From Temperatibacter marinus (GTDB taxonomy: Bacteria; Pseudomonadota; Alphaproteobacteria; Sphingomonadales; Kordiimonadaceae): a stretch of DNA of 64,000 bases. Below are positions 12,059-50,520 of the stretch, piece after piece (positions within the stretch are counted from its first letter, which is position 1; every line of letters begins with the position of its first letter). Below the pieces are notes generated by a model, which was not told where the DNA came from, did no database searches, and was given only the letters and a program-made list of their open reading frames with translations. The position numbers were made by a program, and so were the translations under genes. The stretch is from assembly GCF_031598375.1 (NCBI RefSeq), contig NZ_CP123872.1, forward strand, positions 806,001 to 870,000, read 5' to 3'.

Positions 12059-12075
12059 GAGTAACACTAAGGCTG

Positions 12076-13356: not shown

Positions 13357-13370
13357 AATGATATATTTTT
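13357..13370. promoter_or_regulatory. AATG-N6-CATT operator candidate, site 1
   Basis: AATGATATATTTTT matches 12 of 14 positions of the palindrome AATGATATATCATT shared by six intergenic regions here. It lies 85 bases upstream of the CaiB 1 ATG, near where the leftward transcript would start if the FNR-like box at 13402 were at -41.5. Confidence 0.5.
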
Positions 13371-13401
13371 ATAACATATACCACGAAAAATATACATGAC
13401 G

Positions 13402-13415
13402 ATGATAAAGATCAA
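13402..13415. promoter_or_regulatory. FNR-like box (ATGAT-N4-ATCAA)
   Basis: ATGATAAAGATCAA matches the FNR consensus TTGAT-N4-ATCAA at 9 of 10 defined bases. It lies between CaiB 1 and hyuA. Confidence 0.55.
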
Positions 13416-13477
13416 TGCATCAGACCTTGTCTATATTGTTTGATGTAAAAAAAGATCAAGGAATAATACGGGAAAAC

Positions 13478-13491
13478 TTGATCGACATGAT
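13478..13491. promoter_or_regulatory. Weaker FNR-like box upstream of hyuA
   Basis: TTGAT-CGAC-ATGAT has a perfect left half and 3 of 5 in the right half (8 of 10 overall). Its centre is about 96 bases before the hyuA ATG. Confidence 0.35.
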
Positions 13492-13580
13492 TTTTGAAAT
13501 ACCTGTTAGACTGCCAGCATAGCGCAGGCAGTAGATTGATCGATTCAGTCAACCGGGGTTAACTAAAGGAGCGGGAAAGA

Positions 13581-15635: not shown

Positions 15636-15645
15636 GGAGGGCACC

Positions 15646-17575: not shown

Positions 17576-17733
17576 CCAGTATGAGGGGTATGCTATTCTA
17601 TTGCCTCCCTACGAAAACAGCCTAATTCTATAGACACTATTTTCGAGTAAATGATCCGACACCGTTTACAGGCCGTACCAATCAGTGACGACCTTAATCA
17701 TTTGTGCAGACCATACATGGGAGGGATATATCT

Positions 17734-22866: not shown

Positions 22867-23317
22867 CAGAGTTTTCCAAAATAATATAGATAACAATTAA
22901 GTTGCCATCATAGTCTAAAAAACCTAATTCACGACCTATGCGGCCGTCTTTGGTTTCCAATCTGGATTCGTCAAAAACTTTCAAGCCTGCAGCCCGGGCG
23001 TTGTTCATCACTCCATCAAAATCTTCACATTCAAGAACAATAGCACTGCGCGAAGGCAACGGCACTTCAGGCAATTCAATTCCTTTTAATTCCGTGAGAG
23101 CCATAACATTGGTTTGCGTTTGAGTAGAGAGAACCGCAAACCGCATATCTGCCGCGGGATCAATTTGAAAAACCTCATATGAGTAGCTGGTCTTCTCTGA
23201 GTTTTTTGTAAAGGCGATCTCTAGACCGAGAATATCCCGGTAGACAGTAAGTGCGCGGTCAAGATCTGTAACAACATAATTTGGCCGCTGAAATCTAACA
23301 TGTGGTTTTGCTGACAT
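22859..23317 (-). CDS. VOC family protein (glyoxalase/dioxygenase superfamily)
   Basis: Single-domain vicinal-oxygen-chelate protein of 152 residues. 'RPNYVVTDLDRALTVYRDILGLEI' (in two parts) is the classic N-terminal beta-alpha-beta module. 'GRIGRELGFLDYDGNLIVIY' is the C-terminal strand region, where the last metal-ligand Glu is usual; here the position reads Asn-Leu-Ile, so metal binding may be altered. It is first in a three-gene operon with the alpha/beta hydrolase and the exported VOC protein, and divergent from another VOC gene at 23389. Confidence 0.8.
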   Translation of the reverse strand: MSAKPHVRFQRPNYVVTDLDRALTVYRDILGLEIAFTKNSEKTSYSYEVFQIDPAADMRFAVLSTQTQTNVMALTELKGIELPEVPLPSRSAIVLECEDFDGVMNNARAAGLKVFDESRLETKDGRIGRELGFLDYDGNLIVIYIILENSDA

Positions 23318-23388
23318 AAGTCATTCCTCTTCCCTCTTGATTTCCCTTATCCTCTCTACTTTCATAACAAAATAGAAAGAAGTGTCTC

Positions 23389-27528: not shown

Positions 27529-27542
27529 TTGAGCCATATCAA
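27529..27542. promoter_or_regulatory. FNR-like box before CaiB 2
   Basis: TTGAG-CCAT-ATCAA matches 9 of 10 FNR consensus bases. If its centre is at -41.5, transcription of CaiB 2 would start near 27577, with TATTAA (27566-27571) as a fitting -10. Confidence 0.55.
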
Positions 27543-27577: not shown

Positions 27578-27591
27578 AATGATATAACAAT
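27578..27591. promoter_or_regulatory. AATG-N6-CATT operator candidate, site 2
   Basis: AATGATATAACAAT matches 12 of 14 positions of the shared palindrome. It lies at the predicted start point of CaiB 2, where a repressor would block transcription. Confidence 0.5.
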
Positions 27592-27619: not shown

Positions 27620-28807
27620 ATGACTGAAACTGAACATCTGCCCCTTTCTGGGATCAAAGTTATTGAATTTACCCATATGGTTATGGGGCCAACTGTTGGC
27701 GTGATGCTCGCTGACCTTGGGGCTGATGTGATTAAAATTGAACCGGTCAAAGGAGATAATACACGTCGCTTGGTCGGCTCAGGCGCTGGTTATTTTCCAA
27801 TGTATAACAGAAATAAACGCTCTATCTGCCTAGATATGAAAGCGGCCGAAGGGAAAACAGTTGCTTATCAGTTGATTAAAGAAGCTGACGTGGTCATTGA
27901 AAATTTCAGGCCTGGAGCAATGGATAAACTTGGATTTGGTTATGACAAGCTTTCGAAAACAAATCCCGGTTTAATTTACTGCAGTGAGAAAGGCTTTCTC
28001 TCTGGCCCCTATGAACATAGAGCCGCCTTAGATGAAGTGGCACAAATGATGGGTGGCCTTGCTTATATGACTGGCCCAACAGGCCGTCCCTTGCGAGCCG
28101 GAGCTAGTGTCATTGATGTTACAGGCGGCATGTTCGGCGCTATGGCTGTGCTTGCAGCCTTAAATGAGCGACATCGTACCGGCAAGGGCCAATATGTAAA
28201 AAGTTCCCTCTATGAAACAACAGCCTATCTCGTCGGTCAACATATGGCACAATATGCAGTGACAGGCAGTCCCGCCAATCCCATGCCTGAACGCATTAGT
28301 GCCTGGGCCATTTATGAAGTGTTTGATACAAAAGACGACGACAAAGTTTTTGTTGGTGTTGTCAGCGACACTCAGTGGGTTGTCTTTTGTGAGAGCTTTA
28401 GCCTAGAAGAGCTCGCCCATCATCCAGATTATGCAAAGAATGCTGACCGCGTGGCGCAGCGCGATACACTTATTCCGCAAATTAAAGCTCTTTTTAAATC
28501 TTATACAAAAACTGAGCTTATGGCCAAACTCGAGACGACGGGCTTGCCTTTTGCTCCTATCACTCGTCCTCAAGACTTGATTGAAGATCCTCATCTCAAT
28601 GCACAGGACGGCATGATCGAACTCACTTTGTCAGATGGGTCTCTTGCGAAATTACCCGCTCTTCCTATAGAAATGAAGGGTGAAAGATTAAAACTGCATA
28701 CTGATTTGCCGACCATTGGAGAACATACAAATGAGGTTCTCTCGTCCTTAGGGTATAGCGATGAGATGATTAAACAAATGAAAAATGCATCTATTATCAA
28801 TGATTAA
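27620..28807 (+). CDS. CaiB/BaiF family (class III) CoA-transferase 2
   Basis: A second class III CoA-transferase of 395 residues. 'VIEFTHMVMGPTVGVMLADLGADVIKIE' (in two parts) is the N-terminal CoA-binding strand-loop. 'VIENFRPGAMDKLGFGYDKL' and the catalytic Asp in 'ASVIDVTGGMFGA' follow, then 'GKGQYVKSSLYETTAYL'. AGGGAA precedes the ATG. It differs clearly from CaiB 1, so the two probably act on different acids or at different steps. Its promoter region carries both shared motifs. A PAS protein gene follows in the same direction after 75 bases. Confidence 0.9.
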   Translation: MTETEHLPLSGIKVIEFTHMVMGPTVGVMLADLGADVIKIEPVKGDNTRRLVGSGAGYFPMYNRNKRSICLDMKAAEGKTVAYQLIKEADVVIENFRPGAMDKLGFGYDKLSKTNPGLIYCSEKGFLSGPYEHRAALDEVAQMMGGLAYMTGPTGRPLRAGASVIDVTGGMFGAMAVLAALNERHRTGKGQYVKSSLYETTAYLVGQHMAQYAVTGSPANPMPERISAWAIYEVFDTKDDDKVFVGVVSDTQWVVFCESFSLEELAHHPDYAKNADRVAQRDTLIPQIKALFKSYTKTELMAKLETTGLPFAPITRPQDLIEDPHLNAQDGMIELTLSDGSLAKLPALPIEMKGERLKLHTDLPTIGEHTNEVLSSLGYSDEMIKQMKNASIIND

Positions 28808-30519: not shown

Positions 30520-31506
30520 CTACTCATCAAGAGTACAACTGGCCTGCATCCAGCGAAGATTGAGGGCGATCCTTTTGCTTTCGGGGGCTGTCCAAACGTA
30601 GGAGGTGGCACGATCACTGCCATCTTTATGAGCATAGAGCACGAGAGAATCTCGGTTCGGGTCATAAGGCCATCGAACATTTCGCATTTTTATACCAACA
30701 CTTTTTCCTTCTTGACCCACAAGATCAATCCAAAACTCTCCCCCTTGATCCTGAAGTTTAACATTACGGACAAACTGCATTTTCTTTGGCGCTTTGTCAT
30801 TGGTTGCGAGCATCCAACACGTAAAATTTCTTTGCTTTAATAACTTATGGGGCACACCGGCTTTATTCCCATAAACATAATTACCCGCTTCATCCTCTGC
30901 ACGATCATGAATCCATATTTGATCTTCTGTCAGAACCAAATCATCTGAAAAGACCAGGGTGCGCTTGCTTCGCGGTGAATAAACTTTGCACGCTTTATCG
31001 TCCATAAATCCGATAAATTGATTGGCTTGCCGTCGCCAGAATACGGTACAGCCTGCTGGAAGAGTTGTCACATCTTCTCTGGTCAAACCATCAAGCTTTG
31101 ACGGATCCAAATGCGCGTCTTTGACCTGAGAGACATCCTTTGGAGAAAAAATCTCTAGAGCCACAACATGCCGCTCATAATTTGGCGTAAAGCGATAAAA
31201 CCTTTGTCGATATATTTTTTCTGGGTCATTATCGCTATATTGCTGCACATAAAAGACATGCGTCCCAAGAAAAGGGAGGTCAACTCGTTTAAAAATCGAG
31301 TGAATTCGGCCGTGTTTCTCATCAGCCGGTGTCTTCAGTACGCCCTCAAAATAGACTTGTTCCATGTTATCATATTCACCGCCAAACCATTCCATCATGA
31401 TCCTGAAATCTCGATCTAAGACGCTGTTCTTGTCTTTAGCCTCAAGTGAATTGCCTGGAAATACTAGCACAAGGCTAAAAATGGCAGCTGTCAAAATCTT
31501 CATCAT
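30520..31506 (-). CDS. CpcT/CpeT family (phycobiliprotein lyase-like) exported protein
   Basis: Residues 1-23 form a signal peptide. About 25-230 match the CpcT/CpeT chromophore-lyase pattern: 'MMEWFGGEYDNMEQ', 'GTHVFYVQQYSDNDPEKIYRQRFYRF' (in two parts), 'PAGCTVFWRRQANQFIGFMDDKAC' (in two parts), and 'NYVYGNKAGVPHKLLKQ'. In cyanobacteria this calycin-fold family attaches bilins to phycobiliproteins; proteobacterial homologues have no known function. About 100 extra C-terminal residues form a further beta-rich part. Export to the periplasm argues for ligand binding rather than phycobiliprotein maturation. It is first gene of an operon with a reductase, divergent from the DUF1330-ALDH operon across paired FNR-like boxes. 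Confidence 0.82.
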   Translation of the reverse strand: MMKILTAAIFSLVLVFPGNSLEAKDKNSVLDRDFRIMMEWFGGEYDNMEQVYFEGVLKTPADEKHGRIHSIFKRVDLPFLGTHVFYVQQYSDNDPEKIYRQRFYRFTPNYERHVVALEIFSPKDVSQVKDAHLDPSKLDGLTREDVTTLPAGCTVFWRRQANQFIGFMDDKACKVYSPRSKRTLVFSDDLVLTEDQIWIHDRAEDEAGNYVYGNKAGVPHKLLKQRNFTCWMLATNDKAPKKMQFVRNVKLQDQGGEFWIDLVGQEGKSVGIKMRNVRWPYDPNRDSLVLYAHKDGSDRATSYVWTAPESKRIALNLRWMQASCTLDE

Positions 31507-31561: not shown

Positions 31562-31575
31562 ATGATTTAGATCAA
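31562..31575. promoter_or_regulatory. FNR-like box A in the CpcT/CpeT-DUF1330 divergent promoter
   Basis: ATGAT-TTAG-ATCAA matches 9 of 10 consensus bases. Its centre is placed so that a class II start for the leftward CpcT/CpeT operon would lie near 31527, about 20 bases before the ATG. Confidence 0.6.
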
Positions 31576-31583: not shown

Positions 31584-31597
31584 TTGATTTGTATCAT
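31584..31597. promoter_or_regulatory. FNR-like box B in the CpcT/CpeT-DUF1330 divergent promoter
   Basis: TTGAT-TTGT-ATCAT matches 9 of 10 consensus bases. It is 22 bases (about two helical turns) from box A, and its centre would give a rightward start near 31632, just before the DUF1330 ribosome site. Confidence 0.6.
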
Positions 31598-31650: not shown

Positions 31651-31956
31651 ATGGCGGCTTATATGGTTATTATTGCTGAAATTCATGATAGGGAAAGCTT
31701 TATGGCCTATGCAGTTGAGGCTGCAAAACTGGTCGAGAAAATGGGGGGGACTTATCATGTCCAACGCCCAATCAAAAGTGAATGTTTAGAGGGGCAATGG
31801 CCCGACACGGATCGCCTTGTTATATCAAAATGGCCGAGCTTTGAGGCAGCAAAAGACTTTTGGCACAGCCCAGAATACAATGAAGTTAAGAAATTAAGGG
31901 CTGGGAATTCAACCGTAAGAGTTCGTCTGGTTGAAGAGTTGAGTGCCCTATCATGA
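31651..31956 (+). CDS. DUF1330 family protein
   Basis: A 101-residue dimeric alpha+beta barrel protein. 'YMVIIAEIHDRESFMAYAVEAAKLVEKMGG' (in two parts) and 'VISKWPSFEAAKDFWHSPEYNEVKKLR' (in two parts) are the DUF1330 signature. The function is not established. The ATG at 31651 is fixed by GAGGAG 6 bases upstream. Its stop overlaps the aldehyde dehydrogenase ATG (ATGA), so the two are translationally coupled. Its promoter holds FNR-like box B. Confidence 0.88.
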   Translation: MAAYMVIIAEIHDRESFMAYAVEAAKLVEKMGGTYHVQRPIKSECLEGQWPDTDRLVISKWPSFEAAKDFWHSPEYNEVKKLRAGNSTVRVRLVEELSALS

Positions 31957-33380
31957 GCAGTCCATTCCCTGTTAGAAATCCTAGAACCGGCGTGTATGAC
32001 TACAGGATCACCCCTACTCCTGCATCAGAAATTAGCCTTATCAGCTCCACCATGCGTGTCCATCAAGAGACGTGGCTCCAGATAGGGCTCGGCAAAAGAA
32101 TTGCCATTCTCCAACAATTTGCAGAATCCCTAATTGACCATAAAGAAACAGTATTAAAGGCCCTTGAACAAGACACGGGACGCTCGCTCATTTCATCGGT
32201 GGAAATAGATGGAATTAAAGGTGCTGTGGATCGCTGGGCCGCTATAGCTTGCGCACATAAAAATGAAATCGGCGTCTCTTCTTCCATGCCTCATATCTCC
32301 TATGAGGTCACTTATAATCCCTATCCCTTGGTCGGTGTTATTAGCCCTTGGAATTTCCCTCTCACCCTCTCATTTATCGATGCTCTTCCGGCCTTAATTG
32401 CTGGCTGTGCCGTTCTTATTAAACCCAGTGAAATCACACCAAGATTCGCTGAACCACTGAGAAAAATTCTCACTACCATTCCTCATCTGAAGGATGTCTT
32501 GGTTCTCGTTGATGGAGACGGTGAAACTGGGGCCGCTGTCGTCGATCAAGTTGACACGATCTGTTTTACAGGCAGTGTGAAAACTGGCCGAATAGTAGGG
32601 GAACAAGCCGCACGAAATTTCATTCCTTCCTTCTTAGAATTGGGAGGTAAAGATCCTGCGATCGTTCTCAAGTCTGCTGATATTGATCATGCATCAACGG
32701 CACTCCTCCGTGCCAGTATTCTCAACAATGGACAGGCGTGTCAATCAATAGAGCGTATCTATGTCGACGAAGCAATCTATGCAGACTTTATGGAAGCCCT
32801 TATTCATAAAGCACAGCAGGTTACATTGAATTCTGACGACATTCATAAAGGCATTCTGGGCCCTATCATCTTTGAAAAACAAGCACAGATCCTACAAGAT
32901 CAAATCGATGACGCCCGTGAGAAGGGAGCTGTCATCCATACCGGTGGGCACGTAGAAAATCATGGTGGAAGCTGGCTGAAACCTACGGTAATCACGGATT
33001 TGACCCCTGACATGCTTGTGCTGACTGAAGAAACCTTTGGACCCCTTTTGCCTGTGATCCCTTTCAATACCGTTGATGAAGCCATCTCGCGAGCCAATGA
33101 CAGTGATTACGGGCTAAGCGCTTGTGTTTTTGCCGCAACTGCAGAAGAGGCTATTGAAGTGGGTCGTCACCTTGAGGCTGGCGGCATTAGCATAAACGAA
33201 GCTTCGCTCACGGCCCTAATGCATGAGGCTGAGAAGAATAGTTTCAAATTAAGCGGTATGGGTGCTTCGCGGATGGGGCACTCTGGATATCTAAGATTTT
33301 TCCGTCGCCAATCGCTGATGATTAATAATGGAAAGGCATTACCTATCCATGCTTTTGATGAAAACTACATTTCAAATTAG
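31953..33380 (+). CDS. NAD(P)-dependent aldehyde dehydrogenase
   Basis: Oxidises an aldehyde to the acid. It has the full ALDH motif set over 475 residues: 'GVISPWNFPLTLS' (oxyanion Asn), 'FTGSVKTG' (cofactor loop), 'FLELGGKDPAIVL' with the general-base Glu near 229, and 'NNGQACQSIERIYV' with the catalytic Cys near 262. 'EETFGPLLPV' binds the nicotinamide ribose. The organisation resembles coniferyl- or succinate-semialdehyde-type dehydrogenases; the substrate is unknown. It overlaps the DUF1330 gene by 4 bases. The FNR-type regulator gene follows 99 bases later in the same direction. Confidence 0.93.
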   Translation: MSSPFPVRNPRTGVYDYRITPTPASEISLISSTMRVHQETWLQIGLGKRIAILQQFAESLIDHKETVLKALEQDTGRSLISSVEIDGIKGAVDRWAAIACAHKNEIGVSSSMPHISYEVTYNPYPLVGVISPWNFPLTLSFIDALPALIAGCAVLIKPSEITPRFAEPLRKILTTIPHLKDVLVLVDGDGETGAAVVDQVDTICFTGSVKTGRIVGEQAARNFIPSFLELGGKDPAIVLKSADIDHASTALLRASILNNGQACQSIERIYVDEAIYADFMEALIHKAQQVTLNSDDIHKGILGPIIFEKQAQILQDQIDDAREKGAVIHTGGHVENHGGSWLKPTVITDLTPDMLVLTEETFGPLLPVIPFNTVDEAISRANDSDYGLSACVFAATAEEAIEVGRHLEAGGISINEASLTALMHEAEKNSFKLSGMGASRMGHSGYLRFFRRQSLMINNGKALPIHAFDENYISN

Positions 33381-33479: not shown

Positions 33480-34190
33480 ATGTCAATGAATCCAATAAAA
33501 TGTCATAGCTGTTCTGCGCGGGCAAGCCGGTTATGCTCGTCTTTAGATGAAGATGCCATCTATGAGTTAGACGCCATTGCTACACGGATTGAAGTCTCTA
33601 AAGGTAATTATATCTTTCAAGAAGAAGACCCCTCGAGCTATGTCTATAATATCAGCACTGGGATGGGCTATCTTGAGCGCCTCTCAAGCGATGGACGCCG
33701 GCAAATTATGGCCTTTCTCTTTCCAGGGGATTATATTGGTCTTATCCCTGATCCAATTGTCAATGTGAGTGCGGGCGGCTTAACAGACATGTCTGTCTGT
33801 CGGTGGAACATTAAAGACATAGAAAATCTCATTGACAAACATCCTGAATTTGAGCACCGCCTTAGACGCATAGGCAATAGAGTTCTTGCAACAACATTGG
33901 ACCAGCTCTTCATGCTTGGCTGCAAAGATGCCCGCGAGAAACTGGCCTTTTTTCTTTTACAAATGGAGAAACGTCAATTGGTAGCACTAGGGGAAATTGA
34001 AACTATTCACTTACCGATGACCCGCGGTGACATCGCTGACTATTTGGGAATCACAGTAGAAACAGTGAGTCGAATCTTTACCCGAATCAAAAAAGAGGGG
34101 CTGATCGAGTTACCCGACTCGAATGAGGTCGTGATTAAAAACCGTGAGCTTCTCGAGGAAATCGCCGAATATAACGGCATTGATTACTAA
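33480..34190 (+). CDS. Crp/Fnr family regulator with FNR-type Fe-S cysteines
   Basis: A 236-residue Crp/Fnr protein: cNMP-like sensor domain, long dimerisation helix, and C-terminal winged helix. Four candidate [4Fe-4S] ligands are present: Cys8, Cys11 and Cys19 (C-x2-C-x7-C, the FnrL-type spacing) and Cys107 in 'DMSVCRW', matching the internal cysteine of FNR. The recognition helix 'GITVETVSRIFTRIKKEG' has Glu194, Ser197 and Arg198, the E-x2-S-R set that reads TTGAT/ATCAA half-sites. FNR-like boxes of that sequence lie before many genes in this window. It is therefore predicted to be an oxygen-responsive activator or repressor of this catabolic region, possibly a paralogue of a global FnrL. 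Confidence 0.9.
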   Translation: MSMNPIKCHSCSARASRLCSSLDEDAIYELDAIATRIEVSKGNYIFQEEDPSSYVYNISTGMGYLERLSSDGRRQIMAFLFPGDYIGLIPDPIVNVSAGGLTDMSVCRWNIKDIENLIDKHPEFEHRLRRIGNRVLATTLDQLFMLGCKDAREKLAFFLLQMEKRQLVALGEIETIHLPMTRGDIADYLGITVETVSRIFTRIKKEGLIELPDSNEVVIKNRELLEEIAEYNGIDY

Positions 34191-34193
34191 AAA

Positions 34194-35249
34194 TTAAATT
34201 ATTTTCTTCTCTACCAAGCCTGTGATGGCTGCTTTTTGAGTCTCGATAAAATGCGCTCGATCCGGCTCACTAACAGTCCCATCTTCTGCAAGAAGGCTAT
34301 TGGCTTTTTGACTGCCCCCTACGGCATATGTCTCGGCAAAAAGTTCAAACCGTTGACGCGCTAACAGATTGCCCATTCCAGGGCGGCGGCGATATTTTCT
34401 GAGGGCGTTTAAATCAATTGAACAATGGGCAGTCATGGTCTGCCCCCATCCTGATTCCACCTGCGTAATTCCCTTATAATCAACAATAGACGATTTGCCG
34501 TCTGTTGCAGAAAAAGGCAAGTCATGGCCGTTAATGCCTGCAGCATTTGCAGAGACGACATAGGCTAAATTCTCGAGCGCTCTTGCTTTACGAGCAATGG
34601 CTTTCGGGGTTTCACTCACATTCCCCATCTCGCCTGTCGAGTGGACAATAACTTCCGCCCCTCGCATCGCAAGCGAACGCGTAATTTCAGGATATAAAAT
34701 CTCTTCTGACGCTACTGCAGCAAGACGCCCAATCTCTGTCTCAACAACAGGAAAGACACCGTCTAAGCCATAAATATCTAAATATTTGTCCCATACATCA
34801 TGAGGGGTGGGGGCAAACATGCTATTCAAACGACGATAGCGGAGGATAACATCCCCCTTTGGATCGAGAATAAAACTTGTTTGAAAATAAATCCCTTTAA
34901 AATGAGGATCATTTTCATAGGCATTGCCCGCAATAAAGATATCATTGTCTCTCGCGATCTTTCCAAGGGCTTCATATTCTGGCCCCTCCATTTCCAGAGC
35001 TGCCTTTTCTGCCCATCCTGAAATGGTATCCCCCATAGGGTAAGCGGTCAGCACATATTCTGGGAGCACCACGAGTTTGGTATCAGGGCCGATGAAAAGT
35101 TTTGTGGCACGAATTTCTTTAGCTAGACGATCAATGGTTTTCATCATGGATTGGCGCACTTGCGCTCTATCAACTATGGAATTCACGGCATCGCAAGCCG
35201 TTTGAAGTGCCACCGCGTAATAGGACGGTCCCAGTAATGCCCCGCTCAT
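34194..35249 (-). CDS. Nitrilase-superfamily protein with altered catalytic triad
   Basis: A 351-residue carbon-nitrogen hydrolase-fold protein, closest in pattern to the aliphatic amidase/nitrilase branches. The normal Glu-Lys-Cys triad is changed. Glu64 is kept in 'VLPEYVLTAYP'. The Lys position reads Arg140 in 'LRYRRLNS', and the Cys position reads Ser181 in 'AAVASEEILYPEI'. The surrounding 'YPEI.R.LAMRGAEVIVHSTGEMG' confirms the alignment. It may be a binding protein, or an enzyme with changed chemistry. AAGGGG 6 bases before the ATG sets the start. It is divergent from MDR 2 and convergent with the FNR-type gene. Confidence 0.83.
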   Translation of the reverse strand: MSGALLGPSYYAVALQTACDAVNSIVDRAQVRQSMMKTIDRLAKEIRATKLFIGPDTKLVVLPEYVLTAYPMGDTISGWAEKAALEMEGPEYEALGKIARDNDIFIAGNAYENDPHFKGIYFQTSFILDPKGDVILRYRRLNSMFAPTPHDVWDKYLDIYGLDGVFPVVETEIGRLAAVASEEILYPEITRSLAMRGAEVIVHSTGEMGNVSETPKAIARKARALENLAYVVSANAAGINGHDLPFSATDGKSSIVDYKGITQVESGWGQTMTAHCSIDLNALRKYRRRPGMGNLLARQRFELFAETYAVGGSQKANSLLAEDGTVSEPDRAHFIETQKAAITGLVEKKII

Positions 35250-35260: not shown

Positions 35261-35274
35261 TTGATTTGAAACAA
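35261..35274. promoter_or_regulatory. FNR-like box close to the nitrilase-like gene start
   Basis: TTGAT-TTGA-AACAA matches 9 of 10 consensus bases, but it lies only 12-25 bases upstream of the leftward ATG, next to its ribosome site. It could act only as a repressor site for that gene, or for the divergent MDR gene from a distance. Confidence 0.35.
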
Positions 35275-35339: not shown

Positions 35340-36335
35340 ATGACGATCACTCAACAAATCATTCTCAAATCACGGCCAGAAGGCCGCCCGACGGAAGACA
35401 ATTTTGAATTGATAGAATGCCCCCTCAAAGCGCCACAAGACGGTGAAGTCCTTTGCAAAAACCTCTTTTTATCTCTGGACCCTTATATGCGTAGCCAGAT
35501 TGCAGGTCGGCATATCTCTGGAGCAATTCCAGAAGGGGGTATATTGCTCGGCGAAACAGTAGCTGAAGTCATAGAAAGTAACAACGCCTCCTATACAGTC
35601 GGTGATCGCATACTCATTCAAGGGGGGTGGCAAACTTATACAGTTTTAAAGCCTGAAAGTGCTCGCCCTATTGATCCCCGCATCGCCCCTGCATCGTTGG
35701 CACTTGGCGTGCTTGGCATGCCCGGGTTAACCGCTTATGCAGGCATTCAATATTTAGCTGAGGCCAAAAAAGGGGATACCCTTGTTGTGTCCGCTGCCTC
35801 TGGTGCTGTCGGGTCAATGGTGGGTCAATTTGCCAAAACTAAAGGCTGTCATGTGATCGGGATAGCCGGGTCAAAAGAAAAATGTGACTGGCTTGTAAAA
35901 GAGGCGGGCTTCGATGCCTGTATCAACTATAAAGAAAACTCGGTTGCTGATGAAATTGATCGCTTATGCTCAAAAGGGGTGGATATCTATTTTGACAATG
36001 TAGGCGGCCCCATACTTGATGATATAATGTGGCGGCTTGCAGTGGGTGCGCGTGTTGTTTTATGCGGCTTAATGGCACAAATTAACAGTGAAGATCGACC
36101 TGCGGGGCCAAACCCAGCGACCATCATCAAAGCGCGTGCAACTGTTCGCGGTCTCGTTGTCTATGATTTTTGGGATAAAATGCCTGAAATGGTTGACTGT
36201 TTTGCTCCCCTTATTGCGGCAAATAAACTTAAATTTATAGAAGATATTAGCGTTGGAATTGATCAAGCGCCGGTTGCTTTTGCCCGCCTCATGCGCGGCG
36301 AAAATTACGGCAAGACAATCATCAAACTAGGCTAA
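35340..36335 (+). CDS. NADP-dependent medium-chain oxidoreductase 2 (curcumin reductase/CurA-like)
   Basis: Zinc-free MDR enzyme of 331 residues reducing conjugated double bonds with NADPH. The family-typical 'LFLSLDPYMRSQIAGRH', the nucleotide motif 'VSAASGAVGSMVGQFAKTKG', 'GVDIYFDNVGGPILDD', and the late 'GLVVYDFWDKMPEM' are all present. It is more canonical than the paralogue at 29497. It is divergent from the nitrilase-like gene. Its 3' end overlaps the convergent FAD oxidase gene by 4 bases. Confidence 0.92.
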   Translation: MTITQQIILKSRPEGRPTEDNFELIECPLKAPQDGEVLCKNLFLSLDPYMRSQIAGRHISGAIPEGGILLGETVAEVIESNNASYTVGDRILIQGGWQTYTVLKPESARPIDPRIAPASLALGVLGMPGLTAYAGIQYLAEAKKGDTLVVSAASGAVGSMVGQFAKTKGCHVIGIAGSKEKCDWLVKEAGFDACINYKENSVADEIDRLCSKGVDIYFDNVGGPILDDIMWRLAVGARVVLCGLMAQINSEDRPAGPNPATIIKARATVRGLVVYDFWDKMPEMVDCFAPLIAANKLKFIEDISVGIDQAPVAFARLMRGENYGKTIIKLG

Positions 36336-37912
36336 AGGCCAAGAACACCAGGATTAATCAATCCCTTTGGATCAAGAGATTTCTTCAAATTTTTTACGAG
36401 AGCAAAAGTCGCAGGATCCAAACTTTGGTGATATGGATAGGTGCGTCCGATTTGCAGATGAGTGCTGCCCATCTCTTGATATATTTTTAGAGCATGGTTT
36501 TTAAGTTCTTGAACAAGAGCCCTTGCATCAGGCCGATCTCCGAAATCCGTAAACCTTTTTAGCACTGATTTCTCAACGGTGCGCTTTTGAATTTCTTCCA
36601 ATTTATCGGGCCAGAAAAAAACCAATTCTACAACACTGATGTTACTGCTGACAGTGGCAAAGAGATATCCAATTTCAATGCCATGCTCTTTAATAGCCTT
36701 CTCATGCGAACTAAAGGCCTTATTCAATTCATGCACACAGTCTATAGCTTTTGAATGGGGCACAAGACCATGGACTGGCAGCCACCGCTCGCCCTGAGGT
36801 CCAACCATATTATTGAGGGGCACAAAAGGATTCGCTCTCACGATTTGTGGGATTGAATTCTCCACAGCAAGACCGCCTGCGTTCTCAGCAATTTTCTCAA
36901 TGGCATGGATTGCATCTTTTGCCCCCTGTTGACTGTGAGATTCTGTAGAGAAGTTATAAGCGTAAATGACATCTTCCATATAACGGCGGCCAGCAAAGGC
37001 AATTTTAATCCCCTCCTTCATCGCAGAGAAGACCGAGCCGGACTTTTTCATCACATTACCAAGAGATTTTAGATCACGTGACATACTCTCCCGTTTCATG
37101 CGCTGGCCATGCAGAACTGGATCAAACCCAAAGCTTTCGCTTGCAAGACCGGCCCGTGCGACAGAAGATGCTGCTTCGAACATGCTGTCGACTGTGGGGA
37201 AGTTATAGGAGCAATGCGCGTCGTATTTAGGTTGCCTGATTAAACGTAGGGTTATAGTGGCCTTCACCCCAAGTGCGCCAGCGTCGCTGGTAAAAAGCCC
37301 TGTAAGATCGGGGCCATAGTGCCGCATAAACGGCGAACCACCTTTCACTGCAGCTGCGCCAGTTTTCATAATGGACCCATCTGCAAGAACGATTTCAAAG
37401 GCCAAAACACTATCCGCTGCTGTACCAAATTGGCCAGAGCCAAAGAAGATACTATTTTGACTCACACTACCACCCACCGTGGCATAAATGCCAGAAAGAG
37501 TTCCCCAGTAAGGCGTACGAAGACCCTTCTCCAGCAGATCTTCATATAAAGATTTCCACGTACAGCCAGCTTCTACTGTCACATACATATCTTCGCTATT
37601 CACCTCTATAATCCGATTCAGCCGCTGGGTATCGATGCTAAGAGATTTGCTGCTTTGTGGACAATAGCCATTTGTATAAGACATGCCACCGCCGCGTGGT
37701 AAAATGGCGACCCCAGCCTCAACAGCGAGTTTTACCACTTGTGCCAGCTCTTCCTTTGTATTCGGTTGAACAATGGCGCCTGTTAGGCTGTCTGAAATCC
37801 CCGACACATCTTGGGAAAAATATGCTCGCTCTGCTTCATCCACAATCACACAATCGTCCCCAACAAGGGCCGTTAAATCTTTTAGCAGGGAGGCAGGCAG
37901 TGACATAGACAT
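36332..37912 (-). CDS. FAD-linked oxidase/dehydrogenase (VAO/PCMH family)
   Basis: A 526-residue flavoprotein of the vanillyl-alcohol-oxidase superfamily, resembling p-cresol methylhydroxylase and vanillyl alcohol oxidase. The FAD-binding PCMH region (about 25-220) has 'LPRGGGMSYTNGYCPQSSKS' and 'YWGTLSGIYATVGGSVSQNS'. The substrate domain follows, ending 'LDPKGLINPGVLGL' as usual. It would oxidise a para-substituted phenol or a hydroxy acid. It is the last gene of the operon TRAP-binding protein, small permease, large permease, oxidase, and lies only 2 bases after the large permease stop. The imported substrate is therefore probably its substrate. Confidence 0.86.
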   Translation of the reverse strand: MSMSLPASLLKDLTALVGDDCVIVDEAERAYFSQDVSGISDSLTGAIVQPNTKEELAQVVKLAVEAGVAILPRGGGMSYTNGYCPQSSKSLSIDTQRLNRIIEVNSEDMYVTVEAGCTWKSLYEDLLEKGLRTPYWGTLSGIYATVGGSVSQNSIFFGSGQFGTAADSVLAFEIVLADGSIMKTGAAAVKGGSPFMRHYGPDLTGLFTSDAGALGVKATITLRLIRQPKYDAHCSYNFPTVDSMFEAASSVARAGLASESFGFDPVLHGQRMKRESMSRDLKSLGNVMKKSGSVFSAMKEGIKIAFAGRRYMEDVIYAYNFSTESHSQQGAKDAIHAIEKIAENAGGLAVENSIPQIVRANPFVPLNNMVGPQGERWLPVHGLVPHSKAIDCVHELNKAFSSHEKAIKEHGIEIGYLFATVSSNISVVELVFFWPDKLEEIQKRTVEKSVLKRFTDFGDRPDARALVQELKNHALKIYQEMGSTHLQIGRTYPYHQSLDPATFALVKNLKKSLDPKGLINPGVLGL

Positions 37913-37914: not shown

Positions 37915-39171
37915 TTAAACGAACATAAGAGATAAAGCGGGGACAAATGTGATGATTAACAGCCCTAACAACATGATGAGCAAGAAGGGTATCACGGATT
38001 TGGCAATCAACCAGAAATCTTCATTGAAGGCTGTCATCGCTACAATCAAGTTGAGACCTAGCGGCGGCGTTAAATAGCCAAGCTCTAAATTTGTAATCAT
38101 AATGATCCCAAAGTGCACAGGATCAATATTTTGGGCTAACGCTAGAGGTAAGAGAAGTGGCGCGATGATTAAAATTGCAGAACCAATGTCCATGAAGGTT
38201 CCAACAATCAGCAGTAAAACAAGCGTGACAAGCAGAAACGTCACCGGATCAGAAATTAGCCCGCTCATCCAATGCACCAAATCATGGGGTAACTGTTCAT
38301 ATGACATGAAAGTATTGATTGATAGGGCCATCATCAATAGCGGGAAAAGGCTGCCCATCATCGTCGCTGTTTCTAAGGTCGTTCCTTTGAGATCGGACAG
38401 CGACATATCTTTGTGGATCAAAAATTCAACCAAAATAGCATAGGTTACAGCGACCGCAGCTGATTCTGTAGCTGTAAACCACCCTGCATAAATACCACCC
38501 AGAATGAGAACCGGCATAAACAGGGCGAAGATCCCCTCCTTAAGGGCTCCCAAAAAACTAGATAAATTGAAAGCTGCTCGTGGCTGATTCCTATTGATAA
38601 TCACAGCGTAAATAACCATTAAGCCTGTCAGTAAGATGGCAGGACCAACCCCAGCTTTAAACAAATCAGCAATCGATGTCTCTGTCATCACACCGTATAG
38701 AATGAGCGGAATTGATGGAGGAACAATAATCCCAAGAGTTCCTGCAGCACAAAGCGCGCCAAGGGCAAATTTCTTGCTATAACCAGCGTCTAAGAGTGCT
38801 GGATACATTACAGACCCTACCGCAATCAACGTGACCGTACTGGATCCAGAAATAGCCGCAAAAAAAGCACAGGATAAGATGGTTGCTATTGCTAATCCGC
38901 CAGGGATTGGATTGGTTGCTTCCTGCATTATCTTGATCAGACGCCGTGCTATACTGCCCCGCGACATGATATTTCCTGCGAGAATGAAAAGAGGAATAGA
39001 CAGCAGGACTTCTTGATCAGCAGCAGCCCAGACATCCAAGACTACATATGATAATTTGCCGTCTCCCCAAGCAAGATAACAAAAAGCTGCTGCAAAGCCG
39101 AGCATCACAACGATCCGTTGGCGTAAGATCAGCATGGCTGCTAGCGATGTCGTTAAGAAAAGAGCACTCAT
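37915..39171 (-). CDS. TRAP transporter large permease (DctM-like)
   Basis: Inner-membrane subunit of 418 residues with about 12 membrane segments. Family motifs are 'LFILAGNIMSRGSIARRLI', 'FAAISGSSTVTLIAVGSVMYPALLDAGY' (in two parts), 'IVPPSIPLILYGVMTETSIADLF' (in two parts) and 'LGYLTPPLGLNLIV'. It drives Na+-coupled uptake of an organic acid with the binding protein and small subunit. Its ATG overlaps the small-subunit stop by 4 bases (ATGA), and the FAD oxidase follows after 2 bases. Confidence 0.94.
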   Translation of the reverse strand: MSALFLTTSLAAMLILRQRIVVMLGFAAAFCYLAWGDGKLSYVVLDVWAAADQEVLLSIPLFILAGNIMSRGSIARRLIKIMQEATNPIPGGLAIATILSCAFFAAISGSSTVTLIAVGSVMYPALLDAGYSKKFALGALCAAGTLGIIVPPSIPLILYGVMTETSIADLFKAGVGPAILLTGLMVIYAVIINRNQPRAAFNLSSFLGALKEGIFALFMPVLILGGIYAGWFTATESAAVAVTYAILVEFLIHKDMSLSDLKGTTLETATMMGSLFPLLMMALSINTFMSYEQLPHDLVHWMSGLISDPVTFLLVTLVLLLIVGTFMDIGSAILIIAPLLLPLALAQNIDPVHFGIIMITNLELGYLTPPLGLNLIVAMTAFNEDFWLIAKSVIPFLLIMLLGLLIITFVPALSLMFV

Positions 39172-39698
39172 TGTTTAATGCCCTCCACTTCTGAGAGCGA
39201 AGGATTTGCCTCTAATTGAGGGCGCAGGTCTAAATATAGGCCGTAAATAGCATGACGAATACCCGCCACTAAGAAAACCAGGGGAATAAGAGCCTGCATA
39301 GGCCATACAGGCATTTGAAGCATGCGGGTGACTTCTTGTAATGCATATGTTTCCTGTACAACGCCAATAGCCACACCCGCAAAAGCAAGGCAAAAAGATG
39401 CAGTTAATAATTCTTGAATGCGCGTAATGACAGGATCCCATGCTGCTGGGAACCACTGATCTGCAAATTTAGGCCGCAAATGACGTCGTCCATCTGAGGC
39501 AAGGCCAAAACTTGCAAAAGCTGTCACAATCATTGCAAACACAGCAATCCGGGGCGCACCAATAATGCCAAGACCTGTGACTTTACGTGAAATGACATCT
39601 CCAACAATCACGAGGGTCATCACAATAAATGCAAACACTGTTAATGCCTTTTCAGCTCTTAGTGCGTAGATTAAAAACAGACCGGCAAGTCGATACAT
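39168..39698 (-). CDS. TRAP transporter small permease (DctQ-like)
   Basis: A four-segment membrane protein of 176 residues, the usual DctQ size. It contains 'RAEKALTVFAFIVMTLVIVGDVISRKV' (in two parts) in the first helices and 'GLASDGRRHLRPKFAD', the equivalent of the family R-x-H-I loop. Start and stop overlap its neighbours (TAATG with the binding protein, ATGA with the large permease). It bridges the binding protein and the transport subunit. Confidence 0.88.
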   Translation of the reverse strand: MYRLAGLFLIYALRAEKALTVFAFIVMTLVIVGDVISRKVTGLGIIGAPRIAVFAMIVTAFASFGLASDGRRHLRPKFADQWFPAAWDPVITRIQELLTASFCLAFAGVAIGVVQETYALQEVTRMLQMPVWPMQALIPLVFLVAGIRHAIYGLYLDLRPQLEANPSLSEVEGIKQ

Positions 39699-40750
39699 TA
39701 GGATGACCCCTTGCTCAATTGATGCTGCTCATAAGCCTTTTTGGCTTTCAGCATTGCGTCATAGATCATCTGTGATTGCCCCCCAACAGCCTTGATAATT
39801 TTCGTGTAATTATCCTGTGTTGCTTCTTGCCAAAGACGTCGATCTTTTTTTGACAATCTGTGGGTTGTCACCGCTTTATTTCCGGCAATTTTATTTTCTA
39901 AATAGCGAACCATACCCCTTACGCCCTGTCGTGCTGCATCGGAACTTGGAAACGATGTTTCAATTAACTCTCTGGTCTCTTTTGGGAGTGACATAAACCA
40001 CTGATAATTTGCAACCACAATACCACTATCATAGGCATGTTGAGTGAGTGTAAGATGCGGTGCTTCTTTCCCTAGGCCCGTAACGCCATAGAGAACAATC
40101 CCGGTTTCACCGCCCTCAACCAATCCTGTCTGCAACGCAGGAATAAGATCTTGAAAAGACATTTGCAACATATCGCCGCCGATAGAGGTCATAAAGATTT
40201 GAGACGCCTTAGAAGCTTGAGAACGCATGCGATATCCTGCGGCATCTTCAGGGCGTACGATCGGTTTGCGGCCATACATATTAAGCCAGCCCACATCAAC
40301 CCACCTTACAAGATAAAGGTTTTTCTTCGCAAAGAGAGGTCGGAATACATCTAGCATATGCGTGTCCATGATCCAGTCTAATTCTTCGGTGCTTTCAAAG
40401 AAAAAAGGGGCAAGAAGAACAGATAATTCTGGCACAACTGCCGCGCCGCCTGCCAGAGTAAATCCCCCAAACTGAATGCGATTGCGGCGTATATTGCTCA
40501 TTGTGATAGGCTCGCCGCCTGTCTCACCGCGCACTAACAGCTTCACATGTGCACTGCCCTTTGAACGCGCCTCAGTATTTTTCTTAAACGTTTGCCAGTC
40601 TTTATCCCAGGGCGTTCCTGCTGCCGCAAAAGCACCGACAGTCATTTTTAAAGGACGCTTGTCTGTCTCGTCAGCCACAAGAGACTGCGACCCATTTAAG
40701 AGGAGGCCAATGAACCCAAGAATTTTTAGCAATGGCATAGGATGATGCAT
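39698..40750 (-). CDS. TRAP transporter substrate-binding protein (DctP-like)
   Basis: Periplasmic solute receptor of 350 residues with a signal peptide (ending SLVADE). 'RGETGGEPITMSNIRRNRIQFGGFTLAGGA' (in two parts) and 'LYLVRWVDVGWLNMYGRKPIV' lead to the specificity Arg in 'GYRMRSQASKASQIFMTSIGG' (in two parts). This is the canonical carboxylate-binding position, so the ligand is probably a carboxylic acid. First gene of the TRAP-oxidase operon. The ATG at 40738 is an alternative start. It is downstream of, and on the same strand as, TonB receptor 2, separated by a terminator. Confidence 0.88.
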   Translation of the reverse strand: MHHPMPLLKILGFIGLLLNGSQSLVADETDKRPLKMTVGAFAAAGTPWDKDWQTFKKNTEARSKGSAHVKLLVRGETGGEPITMSNIRRNRIQFGGFTLAGGAAVVPELSVLLAPFFFESTEELDWIMDTHMLDVFRPLFAKKNLYLVRWVDVGWLNMYGRKPIVRPEDAAGYRMRSQASKASQIFMTSIGGDMLQMSFQDLIPALQTGLVEGGETGIVLYGVTGLGKEAPHLTLTQHAYDSGIVVANYQWFMSLPKETRELIETSFPSSDAARQGVRGMVRYLENKIAGNKAVTTHRLSKKDRRLWQEATQDNYTKIIKAVGGQSQMIYDAMLKAKKAYEQHQLSKGSS

Positions 40751-40822: not shown

Positions 40823-43381
40823 TTAGAACTTCCAGCCGAGATTCACACCATAGGTGGCACCTTGGCGCGGTGAAAGGGCGAAAGATCTTTTGTAACTTTC
40901 ATCCACATCAACGAAACGGAAAGCCCCCATGACACTGTCATCATCTGTGATATTCTTGCCCCAAATCTTGATGGAAAGACTATCATTTTCAATGGTTAAA
41001 TTCGCATCTACAAGGCTAGAAGCCCCCATGTATGCAAGGTTATGAACCTGAACGAATCTTTTACTCTCGTAGGAGATTCCAGCACTCAATGTCCAAGACC
41101 ATTCATCGTTGATCTCACCTGTATACTGTGCGCTAGCATAGCCCTGCCATTTGGCTTGCCGCGGCAATTGATGGCCCACAATAGAACCAAGAAGAGACTG
41201 CAATGTCACATCTGTTGGATCCGCACATAGAGCAGCAGGAGCAGAGCCGCGCCCGCAAGCGGTAGAAATTGAGCCAGAGCTGGTCATGTCTGTCAACATC
41301 AACACGGCTTGGTTCAAGTCTGTCCCCTGAAGAACTTCACTATCGGTATAAGCAATGTTCGCGTTAATCATAAAGCCTGGCAAAGCAGCAGGTGCCAAAG
41401 TAACTTCTGCTTCAACACCAGTTAGGCGCACTTTACCAACATTTCTAATGGCTGTTCCTGTTTGCCCTGAAGACGCGACATAGGATTCTGTCAGTTGATA
41501 ATCCTTGATTGTATTTCTAAAGAGCGACACGTTAAAGCGCGCTTGACGATCAAACAATTCCGTCTTAGCACCCAACTCCATAGACCAGTTGGTTTCCTCA
41601 TCATACGTCGCAAGGCCATTTGAAGCAGCGAGCGTCCCATTTAGACCCCCCGGCTTAGTACCTTTCGCCGCAACCGCATATAAATTCACGTGATCAGAAA
41701 CTTTATAAGCTGCAGAAAAACGAGGCGTGAAACTCTTGAATGTCACTGCTGCAGGATCGTCAATAGATCCGACACCACCCGCAACATTAACAATATTGCC
41801 TGCTGTGTCATACGTCACATCACGAGTCCAGCTGATACGATTAATAGTTTCTTCAGCATAGCGTGCTTCAACCGTGATCTTTAAATCATCCGTGAGATGC
41901 CGTTCTATACTGGCGAAAATCGCCTTATTTTCTAAGTCGCTGTTGGTCTTCCCATTGTCTGTCGTAATGGTAAAGTTAGGCGGCCCAAAAAACCCGAACT
42001 CAAGCGCAGCTCCGCAAGGAAGGAATGGAATGCCACCTGCGGCACAATAATCTGCAAAACGACCCGTTTGAAGGGCATAGCTTTCACCAATAGCCTCACC
42101 AAATCGCTCTGGGAATGGCTGCGTTCCACGACTTGAACTATCATAATTCAAATAATAGAGGCCCATAACTGCGTTGGTTCTCTCTCCTGCATATCTCAAT
42201 GTCATCTCATGAGAATAATCTTTAGATATCTCGTTGCTATGCGTTGTGAAATTAGAGGCACTGGTTACAGTTGAATGACCATATGCCCATGGTCCACCCG
42301 GGAAGAATTGGAAGAAAGGCGCGATAAAAAAGTTACTTGTTGAATAACTCTCAGCTTGATAATCCGAATCATAAGCGTCATTGCGCTCTGTATGGTTAAA
42401 GCCGTAGATATACTTCATGCTCCAACTATCATTCAGCTCATAATTGGCCGTTAAACTGGTTTGCCATTTTTCTGCTCGACGATAGCCTGGCTCGTTCAAT
42501 GCACGAACATCGTCAAAACTAACAGGGCGATCTAGTAATTCACCGCAGAAATATCGGCTCTGGCCTAGATAAAAAGACCCTGTATCCTGAAAACAATTAT
42601 TCTCAGTGGAGTCTGTATTTGCAATGGCAATATGTTCATCATCAGACTTTAAATAACTGGCACGCAGTCGCACATCCAATTTATCATTCACTTGCCAAAA
42701 AAGAACACCTGAATAAGAAGTAGATTCGATTCCCCCGACTTTACGTCCATCATATTGGTTCACAAAGTCTCCGTCGGCTTTATATTTTCTTGCCATAAAG
42801 CTACCGGATAGATTTTCAGAGAGAGGACCTCTTAGAGCGACAGATGCCTCAAAAAGATCATTGCTGCCAAAGCCGACTTTAGCAGAGCCACTAAACTCAT
42901 CTGAAGGGCCTTTGGTAATGATGTTGATAGCGCCTGAATATGTATTCCGACCATACAGTGCTGACTGCGGGCCTTTAACAACTTCGATGCGTTCTACCTG
43001 GTCCAGGTCATAATCAAGGAGTGAGCCGTTGATATAAACACCATCTACAAAATAAGAAACACCAGAGGAACCAAGAATATTTGCTTGTCCCCGAATAACA
43101 GGACGGTCATCAGCACGACCAAATTCACTATCCAGTGAGAGGCCTGCTGTGCGCTTTGCAATCTCATCGATGGACACCAAATTTGCGCGCTCTATTGAAT
43201 TAGCAGTAAAGGCCGTAATAGCAACGGGCGCTTCTTGAATATTCTCACTTCTTTTTCTTGCTGTCACAATGATCTCTTCAAGCATCAGCTCTTCATCATC
43301 TTGAGCTGCAACAGTCGTTGTGCCCGAAAAAGCACTGGTGATTATGACTGTTGAGCAAAGCAATCTAGTCTTAAATTTCAT
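40823..43381 (-). CDS. TonB-dependent outer-membrane receptor 2
   Basis: An 852-residue receptor. The ATG at 43381 follows GGAGGGA; the upstream TTG is part of that site. A signal peptide (ending TVAAQ) is followed by 'LEEIIVTARKRSENIQEAP' (TonB box and plug start), the plug motif 'VERIEVVKGPQSALYGRNTYSGAINI' (in two parts), and a long barrel ending 'GVNLGWKF' with the terminal Phe. Cysteines in an extracellular loop ('NNCFQDTGS...YFCGE') suggest a disulphide. The ligand is unknown. It is followed by a terminator and then the TRAP-oxidase operon. Confidence 0.92.
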   Translation of the reverse strand: MKFKTRLLCSTVIITSAFSGTTTVAAQDDEELMLEEIIVTARKRSENIQEAPVAITAFTANSIERANLVSIDEIAKRTAGLSLDSEFGRADDRPVIRGQANILGSSGVSYFVDGVYINGSLLDYDLDQVERIEVVKGPQSALYGRNTYSGAINIITKGPSDEFSGSAKVGFGSNDLFEASVALRGPLSENLSGSFMARKYKADGDFVNQYDGRKVGGIESTSYSGVLFWQVNDKLDVRLRASYLKSDDEHIAIANTDSTENNCFQDTGSFYLGQSRYFCGELLDRPVSFDDVRALNEPGYRRAEKWQTSLTANYELNDSWSMKYIYGFNHTERNDAYDSDYQAESYSTSNFFIAPFFQFFPGGPWAYGHSTVTSASNFTTHSNEISKDYSHEMTLRYAGERTNAVMGLYYLNYDSSSRGTQPFPERFGEAIGESYALQTGRFADYCAAGGIPFLPCGAALEFGFFGPPNFTITTDNGKTNSDLENKAIFASIERHLTDDLKITVEARYAEETINRISWTRDVTYDTAGNIVNVAGGVGSIDDPAAVTFKSFTPRFSAAYKVSDHVNLYAVAAKGTKPGGLNGTLAASNGLATYDEETNWSMELGAKTELFDRQARFNVSLFRNTIKDYQLTESYVASSGQTGTAIRNVGKVRLTGVEAEVTLAPAALPGFMINANIAYTDSEVLQGTDLNQAVLMLTDMTSSGSISTACGRGSAPAALCADPTDVTLQSLLGSIVGHQLPRQAKWQGYASAQYTGEINDEWSWTLSAGISYESKRFVQVHNLAYMGASSLVDANLTIENDSLSIKIWGKNITDDDSVMGAFRFVDVDESYKRSFALSPRQGATYGVNLGWKF

Positions 43382-43506
43382 GGTTCCCTCCAAAATTACG
43401 ACACTTTCCTATTCATCACTTCATCAAATTGAAACATCCAACCCTACTTGGGATGATTCATGAAATAATACTCGCATTAAGGTTATCTCCAATATTTCAG
43501 GAAACA

Positions 43507-49534: not shown

Positions 49535-49548
49535 AATGATATATCAAT
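49535..49548. promoter_or_regulatory. AATG-N6-CATT operator candidate, site 3
   Basis: AATGATATATCAAT matches 13 of 14 positions. It lies 25-38 bases before the HMGL-like 2 ATG and about 50 bases before the divergent hydrolase start, so one site could control both. Confidence 0.6.
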
Positions 49549-49572: not shown

Positions 49573-50520
49573 ATGGCTGCTTTTGACATTGAAATCAGTG
49601 AGGTTGGTCCAAGAGATGGGTTACAATCTATTCAAACCATCATGCCCTTAGAAGCAAAAAAGGCGTGGATCAAAGCTGAATTTGAAGCAGGTGTTCCGGA
49701 AATAGAAGTAGGGTCTTTCGTCCCGGCAAAACTTTTACCGCAAATGGCTGACACAGCTGCTCTCGTTGACTATGCTCGCACCTTAGAAGGATTAACAATT
49801 GCAGCCCTTGTGCCCAATTTCAGAGGCGCTCAAAACGCCATAGACGCAGGCGCTCATAAAATAAGCATACCTCTGTCTGTAAGCGAAACTCATAGCCTTA
49901 AAAATGTCAACCGGACCCATGATCAAATGATTGAAGAAGTCACAAAGATTGCAGCTTACATTCAATCTCTTCCGAAAGAAAAACAACCTTTCTTTGAGGG
50001 CAGCCTTTCAACGGCATTTGGTTGTACTATAGAAGGCCCGATAGCAACTCAAAAAGTCACTGAAATTGCAGAGCGATTGATGAAGGCCGGGGTAAATGAA
50101 GTTGGCTTGTCTGACACGACCGGCTATGCAACTCCAAACCATTTAGTGACCCTCATTAAAGCCGTAAAATCAGCCGTTGGTGAAGAAAATTTAACAGGGT
50201 TGCACCTTCATAATACACGCGGCGTAGGCCTTGCCAATGTTGTGGTAGCTCTCGAAAATGGCATCACCACATTCGATGCCTCCTTAGGGGGTCTTGGCGG
50301 TTGTCCTTTTGCGCCTGGCGCAAGTGGTAATATTGTCACCGAAGATTTGGTATACATGCTTGATAGTATGGGTCTCAAGACCGGCATTGACCTGGAAAAA
50401 TTATGTGCGGTGCGCGACATTGTCCAAAAAGCGCTTCCTCAAGAAGAGCTCTATGGTTTCTTACCCCATGCTGGCTTACCGAAAGGCTATCCTAAGGGCT
50501 ATCAAACGACGTCTTCCTAG
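49573..50520 (+). CDS. HMG-CoA lyase family enzyme (HMGL-like 2)
   Basis: A second lyase of this family, 315 residues. 'EVGPRDGLQSI' carries the catalytic Arg, 'LHLHNTRGVGLANVV' the metal-binding His pair, and 'GLGGCPFAPGASGN' the conserved Cys. It is a diverged paralogue of the 11072 protein (for example 'PRDGLQSI' against 'ARDGLQNE'). It probably cleaves a 3-hydroxyacyl-CoA formed by one of the CaiB enzymes. GGAG sits before the ATG. It is convergent with a membrane protein gene, overlapping it by 4 bases. Confidence 0.88.
   Translation: MAAFDIEISEVGPRDGLQSIQTIMPLEAKKAWIKAEFEAGVPEIEVGSFVPAKLLPQMADTAALVDYARTLEGLTIAALVPNFRGAQNAIDAGAHKISIPLSVSETHSLKNVNRTHDQMIEEVTKIAAYIQSLPKEKQPFFEGSLSTAFGCTIEGPIATQKVTEIAERLMKAGVNEVGLSDTTGYATPNHLVTLIKAVKSAVGEENLTGLHLHNTRGVGLANVVVALENGITTFDASLGGLGGCPFAPGASGNIVTEDLVYMLDSMGLKTGIDLEKLCAVRDIVQKALPQEELYGFLPHAGLPKGYPKGYQTTSS

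Follow-up and report, generated by a model that had tools for sequence, protein, structure and literature searches.

The FNR-type regulator encoded at 33480-34190 (+) is probably an oxygen sensor dedicated to a single pathway, predicted from sequence to activate its own catabolic cluster at low oxygen by the class II mechanism. Several lines of evidence point to this reading: its residues, its position as the sole four-cysteine FNR found in the genome, its placement in a separate clade, its co-inheritance with the cluster, the enrichment of boxes, and the promoter spacing. Coordinates refer to the analysed stretch of 64 kb, further called the window, which covers positions 806001-870000 of a complete single-contig genome of 3,184,799 bases.

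The regulator and its clade

The regulator (referred to as cluster FNR) has 236 amino acids and an ATG start, and is backed by the ORF list, Pfam, PDB, and alignment. Its cysteines follow the pattern C-x2-C-x7-C...C (Cys8, Cys11, Cys19, and Cys107), and its recognition helix ADYLGITVETVSRIFTRIK contains E194, S197, and R198 (VETVSR, residues 193-198). Both features had been proposed in the first-pass annotation, and both are confirmed, the cysteines in the ORF as well as in the alignment. Pfam reports cNMP_binding and HTH_Crp_2/Crp, each above its cut-off, and the protein has the full set expected of an FNR, namely the cNMP-like sensor domain, the Crp-type HTH, four cysteines, and the E-x2-S-R helix. 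The four conserved cysteine ligands are the criterion separating FNR from FixK (PMC2908626). Among NCBIfam models, the nearest is FnrL (NF045989) with 134.8 bits, followed by FixK-Caul with 133.5; since the cut-off is 300 for both, and the FnrL score is below half of it, cluster FNR is not a standard FnrL. In the PDB, residues 6-229 match FNR structures such as 5CVR/5E44 (79.5 bits), and residues 31-228 match FixK2.

As for the rest of the genome, a protein search returns two weak CRP/FNR relatives with about 20% identity, neither of which has the four-cysteine pattern, and the matches of the HTH_Crp_2 family above cut-off are confined to the same loci. The suggested check for a second FnrL was thus carried out by both searches over the complete 3.18-Mb genome, and none was found, cluster FNR being the sole four-cysteine protein that they revealed.

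A search of 120 related genomes yields two tiers of proteins, orthologues with 49-74% identity and FnrL-like proteins with about 35-43%. Five genomes (G042, G066, G074, G076, and G100) have both, with the FnrL-like protein located away from the cluster. In the maximum-likelihood tree cluster FNR groups with the first-tier orthologues and not with the FnrL-like proteins of relatives, which form an adjoining sister group. Support for its clade is 98/94 when the cysteine-less protein of genome G001 is included, and 94/82 for intact orthologues alone. All intact orthologues examined share the four cysteines and the ExxSR helix. The position following Cys11 is variable, with Ser in the window protein, mostly Pro in genus g9, and others in family f8. 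Within its own family, most genomes lack cluster FNR, and most of genus g9 do as well. Outside the window's own genome, no member of the clade was found in 385 genomes of the class (E 1e-57), so the clade looks confined to the window's order. A scan of genome contigs with the single protein gave one distant match.

The G001 orthologue (L130:1069-1818) has lost all four cysteines, its helix is changed to IETAIR, and the genome has cluster genes. Judging by these changes, the protein is an apparent FixK-like derivative, formed by an FNR-to-FixK-like change in place. It was also considered as a clean natural experiment in which cysteines and boxes are lost together; this was rejected, as at least one box, GTGACAAATGTCAT, persists.

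The catabolic cluster and its co-inheritance with the sensor

Directly upstream of the regulator gene lies an aldehyde dehydrogenase gene (31953-33380, +) with homologues in relatives, preceded by a gene for a DUF1330 protein (31651-31956, +), whose ORF is listed from 31603 and whose start at 31651 is inferred from relatives; both genes are part of the conserved cluster. On the other side, the conserved cluster includes a carbon-nitrogen hydrolase of the nitrilase/amidase superfamily (34194-35249, -), an MDR-family reductase (35340-36335, +), a FAD_binding_4 oxidase/dehydrogenase (36332-37912, -), and a TRAP transporter (37915-40750, -) composed of DctM (37915-39171), a small subunit (39168-39698), and DctP (39698-40750). 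Further conserved members are a class III CoA-transferase (27620-28807, +), an HMG-CoA-lyase-like protein (49573-50520, +), and an arm at 11072-17505 with an HMGL-like lyase (+), a CoA-transferase (-), and hydantoinase A/B (+). There is also a conserved operon at 56869-61515 (+) encoding an isochorismatase-like hydrolase, two polysaccharide-deacetylase-like proteins, and isopropylmalate-dehydratase-like large and small subunits; it probably starts later than the listed 56869. The conserved core is made of amidases/hydrolases, CoA-transferases, HMG-CoA-lyase-like and isopropylmalate-dehydratase-like enzymes, dehydrogenases, and the TRAP transporter. A literature search for this gene set found no paper.

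Several other genes accompany the cluster. Phosphate uptake genes at 2213-10944 (phosphate-selective porin, Na/Pi cotransporter, PBP, ABC permease and ATPase, and PhoU) directly precede the catabolic region, and three TonB-dependent receptors are interspersed in it (17704-20295, 40823-43393, and 51686-54358). Relatives have a conserved five-gene operon beside the FNR gene (L058:5545-9821 and orthologues), encoding a 241-aa protein, an amidohydrolase, a CoA-transferase, a 90-aa protein, and a DUF4437/cupin protein; in the window it is not beside the regulator.

The first-pass placement of the regulator inside a catabolic cluster reflects a genuine linkage, as all 18 located orthologues lie amid homologues of the window's catabolic genes and share gain and loss with them. 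According to the comparison of these 18 neighbourhoods with the window, in which contig ends limit the counts, the genes most often found near FNR are the C-N hydrolase (13 genomes), the HMG-CoA-lyase-like protein and the MDR reductase (10 each), the TRAP transporter (9-10), and the aldehyde dehydrogenase and FAD_binding_4 protein (9 each). Even on the short contig of G041 the C-N hydrolase accompanies the FNR orthologue. With the C-N hydrolase as the marker, 19 of the 120 genomes have both genes (including G049, whose FNR is in two pieces), 1 has FNR alone, 5 have the hydrolase alone, and 95 have neither (p 1e-16, a value inflated by shared ancestry, as the counts take in related, non-independent genomes). 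Within genus g9, both genes are present in 5 genomes and neither in 15, which indicates that sensor and cluster were jointly gained or lost.

Boxes, promoter geometry, and candidate readers

The first-pass annotation also placed TTGAT boxes in nearby promoters. This holds in part: boxes occur above chance, but none is perfect, and they are looser than strict TTGAT. No perfect TTGATN4ATCAA was found in the 64-kb window. Intergenic sites with at most one mismatch to it number 5 in 3.8 kb, versus 3 in 34.7 kb of the control (Fisher p 4e-4), which consists of intergenic DNA from twenty stretches of this genome, each of 20 kb; the box letters rearranged in 19 other ways give 0-2 intergenic sites each in the window. 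The core TGAY-N4-RTCA is about 12-fold enriched, with 7 intergenic sites in 4.5 kb versus 5 in 38.5 kb (p 7e-5). Two other counts were rejected as evidence: the excess of sites with two mismatches over the whole window (92 versus 60 in shuffles), since most lie in coding DNA, and the 14 perfect boxes of the genome taken as a regulon, the majority being inside genes.

Near the regulator, ATGATTTAGATCAA (31562-31575) has a TATAGT 32 bp from its centre towards a CpeT-like gene (30520-31506, -), the centre of TTGATTTGTATCAT (31584-31597) lies 60 bp before the inferred DUF1330 ATG, and TTGATTTGAAACAA (35261-35274) occupies the divergent C-N hydrolase/reductase promoter. TTGAGCCATATCAA (27529-27542, one mismatch) lies upstream of the CoA-transferase, ATGATAAAGATCAA (13402-13415) in the divergent CoA-transferase/hydantoinase promoter, CTGACATAAGTCAT (23311-23324) 71 bp before a glyoxalase-like gene at 23389, and ATGATTTATATCAT (56924-56937) upstream of the isochorismatase operon, with TATAAA 33 bp from the centre. 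CTGATTAATATCAT (10959-10972), 106 bp before the HMGL-like gene at 11072, is doubtful because a terminator-like repeat follows.

Among g9 relatives, all five genomes have a box in the DUF1330/GntR promoter (a perfect one in four of them), and all five carry TTGTTTTACATCAA unchanged in the C-N hydrolase/reductase promoter that corresponds to the one with the window box at 35261. Other families show no clear enrichment of strict TTGAT boxes; conserved in their place is (A/G)TGAC-AAAW-GTCAT. An unsupervised scan of cluster promoters with all 256 palindromic 4-mer halves and a 4-bp gap puts TGAC at the top, with 16 intergenic copies of TGAC-N4-GTCA in 9 loci of these families. In the single-contig genome G042, the only three copies of RTGACNNNNGTCAT with an all-A/T centre fall within 21 kb, in the cluster; no intergenic boxes were seen in three loci from families f2, f4, and f7. 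FnrL ChIP sites of R. sphaeroides include ATGAC, TTGAC, and CTGAT halves (PMC2908626), so the TGAC-type boxes of relatives are within the known range of such proteins.

The scan ranks ATAT/TATA beside TGAC; these belong to a second palindrome, AATGATATATCATT, found in L065-L074 promoters, with near-copies in the window at 49535-49548, 56868-56881, and 27578-27591. It is probably the operator of a GntR/UTRA regulator whose gene is present in relatives and absent from the window.

Regarding promoter geometry, in 56 box-gene pairs of the window and relatives -10 hexamers, counted when five or more of their six bases agree with TATAAT, are most frequent at 31-32 bp from the box centre, with 14 at that distance versus about 2.6 expected (about 1.3 per offset elsewhere). 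A distance of 31-32 bp between box centre and -10 corresponds to a site at -41.5, the class II activator spacing at CRP/FNR promoters, and thus suggests class II activation. This spacing is found before the isochorismatase, 490-aa, and FAD_binding_4 genes and before the DUF1330 gene of g9. Within the window it occurs exactly, with a good -10 (5 of 6), only at the box at 31562 towards the CpeT-like gene, the one at 56924 being 1 bp off, so the class II geometry is drawn mainly from relatives. The f8 DUF1330 promoter has its box centre about 21 bp from TATAAT, and judging by this position the box could act otherwise than by class II activation.

Boxes do not name their reader, since FNR, FixK, and DNR recognise virtually the same motif (PMC2908626). 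The genome encodes a FixK/DNR-like CRP/FNR protein (G000:C1:1160031-1160774; L003, L169) with an ETFSR helix and a Cys-rich C-terminus, which is present in 25 of 30 family genomes and in many of them lies about 10 kb from ccoN. The cbb3 operon (G000:C1, about 727-731 kb) has a box TTTTGACAAAAGTCAAA (L105, 632-645) about 64 bp before its first gene; this operon box of the window's genome, TTGACAAAAGTCAA, takes the form TTGAC-N4-GTCAA and is kept across the family (L143-L167) with or without a cluster-type FNR. It was rejected as evidence for cluster FNR, as it persists in relatives that lack that protein. Given its prevalence and closeness to ccoN, the FixK/DNR-like protein probably reads the cbb3 box, and from its sequence context is the likely regulator of cbb3; it could read the cluster boxes too. 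That the cluster boxes are read by this protein (or by FnrL in other genomes), with cluster FNR acting elsewhere or being marginal, fits its helix, its distribution, the near identity of motifs, and the retention of TTTTGACAAAAGTCAAA where cluster FNR is missing. It is, however, unlikely, because cluster and cluster FNR are co-inherited even within one genus, whereas the FixK/DNR-like protein is found with or without the cluster.

It is still harder to regard cluster FNR as the housekeeping FnrL of the species, in charge of cbb3 and haem genes, with an incidental position in the cluster. Its being the only four-cysteine FNR found in the genome would agree with such a role, as would the TTGAC-N4-GTCAA box before the cbb3 operon and a perfect TTGATCTTAATCAA in the hemB/MarR/hemA region (L026; G000:C1:2613779-2613792, between hemB/MarR and the 5-aminolevulinate synthase gene hemA). 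However, its orthologues are linked to the cluster in 18 of 18 cases while FnrL-like proteins sit elsewhere, most g9 genomes lack it and yet keep cbb3 with its box, and it does not reach half of the FnrL cut-off in NCBIfam. In this one species cluster FNR may additionally control cbb3 or hemA. Equally improbable is that it binds Fe-S but senses mainly NO, iron, or redox state, or represses the catabolic genes. Changes at the variable residue after Cys11 alter O2 reactivity (PMC4505428), and the 21-bp spacing of the f8 DUF1330 promoter would suit repression; against this, several different promoters have the 31-32 bp spacing, which speaks for activation, and O2 is the main signal for three characterised P. 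putida FNRs (PMC4505428). A pathway-dedicated, oxygen-sensing activator thus remains the preferred reading of cluster FNR.

Oxygen, the catabolic pathway, and known systems

The first-pass annotation saw a paradox in oxygen-dependent control of a cluster containing a Rieske oxygenase that needs O2. The paradox weakens: 20 kb separate the Rieske/VanA-type gene (54515-55639, -) from the regulator gene, no FNR-type box was found in its upstream gap, and the 541 kb of DNA taken from the cluster regions of relatives contain no homologue. Judged from protein families, the conserved core enzymes do not obviously need O2, so activation at low oxygen is not contradictory. Of that earlier interpretation, the complete ligands, the linkage, and the boxes above chance stand; the Rieske paradox and the strict TTGAT are not supported. 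Searches of the genome brought up two haem-copper oxidases, one of them of cbb3 type, and just NuoG and one other enzyme from the molybdopterin family, so a respiratory nitrate reductase is not evident. The likely setting of pathway use is low oxygen and not anoxia.

Under the preferred reading, Cys8, Cys11, Cys19, and Cys107 would ligate a [4Fe-4S] cluster. At low oxygen the holo-protein would dimerise, bind NTGAY-N4-RTCAN boxes in the promoters of its own cluster at about -41.5, and, as box and -10 spacing suggest, activate the catabolic cluster as a class II activator. In air, by analogy with FNR/ANR, the Fe-S cluster would be oxidised, the protein would become monomeric, and activation would be lost. 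In most relatives the GntR/UTRA regulator, probably substrate-sensing and encoded by a gene not in the window, would overlay this control.

Textbooks present FNR as the global switch for anaerobic life. A broader proposal, for which the chances seem evenly divided, is that a distinct FNR subfamily serves as a single-pathway O2 sensor that one large catabolic cluster carries along between genomes; some species would then have, as their only Fe-S FNR, the private switch of one low-oxygen degradation pathway and no longer the global regulator of respiration, with respiration left to the FixK/DNR-like protein. If true, a cluster-inherited clade supplying the sole Fe-S FNR of a species with a cbb3 oxidase but no recognised respiratory nitrate reductase would show how a global O2 sensor becomes local. 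It also offers a handle on the catabolic pathway, whose regulator, boxes, and likely growth condition (low oxygen) are now predicted.

Among known systems, the alphaproteobacterial FnrL/FnrN of R. sphaeroides and R. capsulatus share the four cysteines and ExxSR helix, and FnrL ChIP sites contain the same ATGAC, TTGAC, and CTGAT halves (PMC2908626); cluster FNR, however, falls in its own clade, which is bound to one catabolic cluster, is absent from most family genomes, and scores below the FnrL equivalog cut-off. FixK2 (PDB 4I2O) is the closest solved structure by score and has a similar DNA target, but FixK proteins lack the full cysteine set that cluster FNR has. The extra four-cysteine FNRs of P. 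putida, PP_3233 and PP_3287, have their own O2 sensitivities, with conditions and targets left open (PMC4505428), whereas cluster FNR has a predicted target cluster. An O2-dependent activator required for catabolic clusters, bzd and mbd, is AcpR of Azoarcus sp. CIB, but it is described as a global regulator (PMC4424350), in contrast to cluster FNR, which is linked to and co-inherited with its cluster. A precedent is AadR of Rhodopseudomonas palustris, which belongs to the Cys-bearing FnrN branch of FNRs and regulates anaerobic aromatic-acid degradation, and thus a Cys-bearing FNR governing degradation of organic compounds without O2 (PMC4999443). For cluster FNR, linkage to catabolic genes and boxes are observed, and control of the pathway at low oxygen is predicted; AadR, however, concerns aromatic acids under anaerobic conditions, while cluster FNR is linked to the catabolic cluster described above in a species with no recognised respiratory nitrate reductase. 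Relative to the literature searched, the catabolic kind of FNR is already known, and what appears to be new is a cluster-bound clade as the sole Fe-S FNR of a genome.
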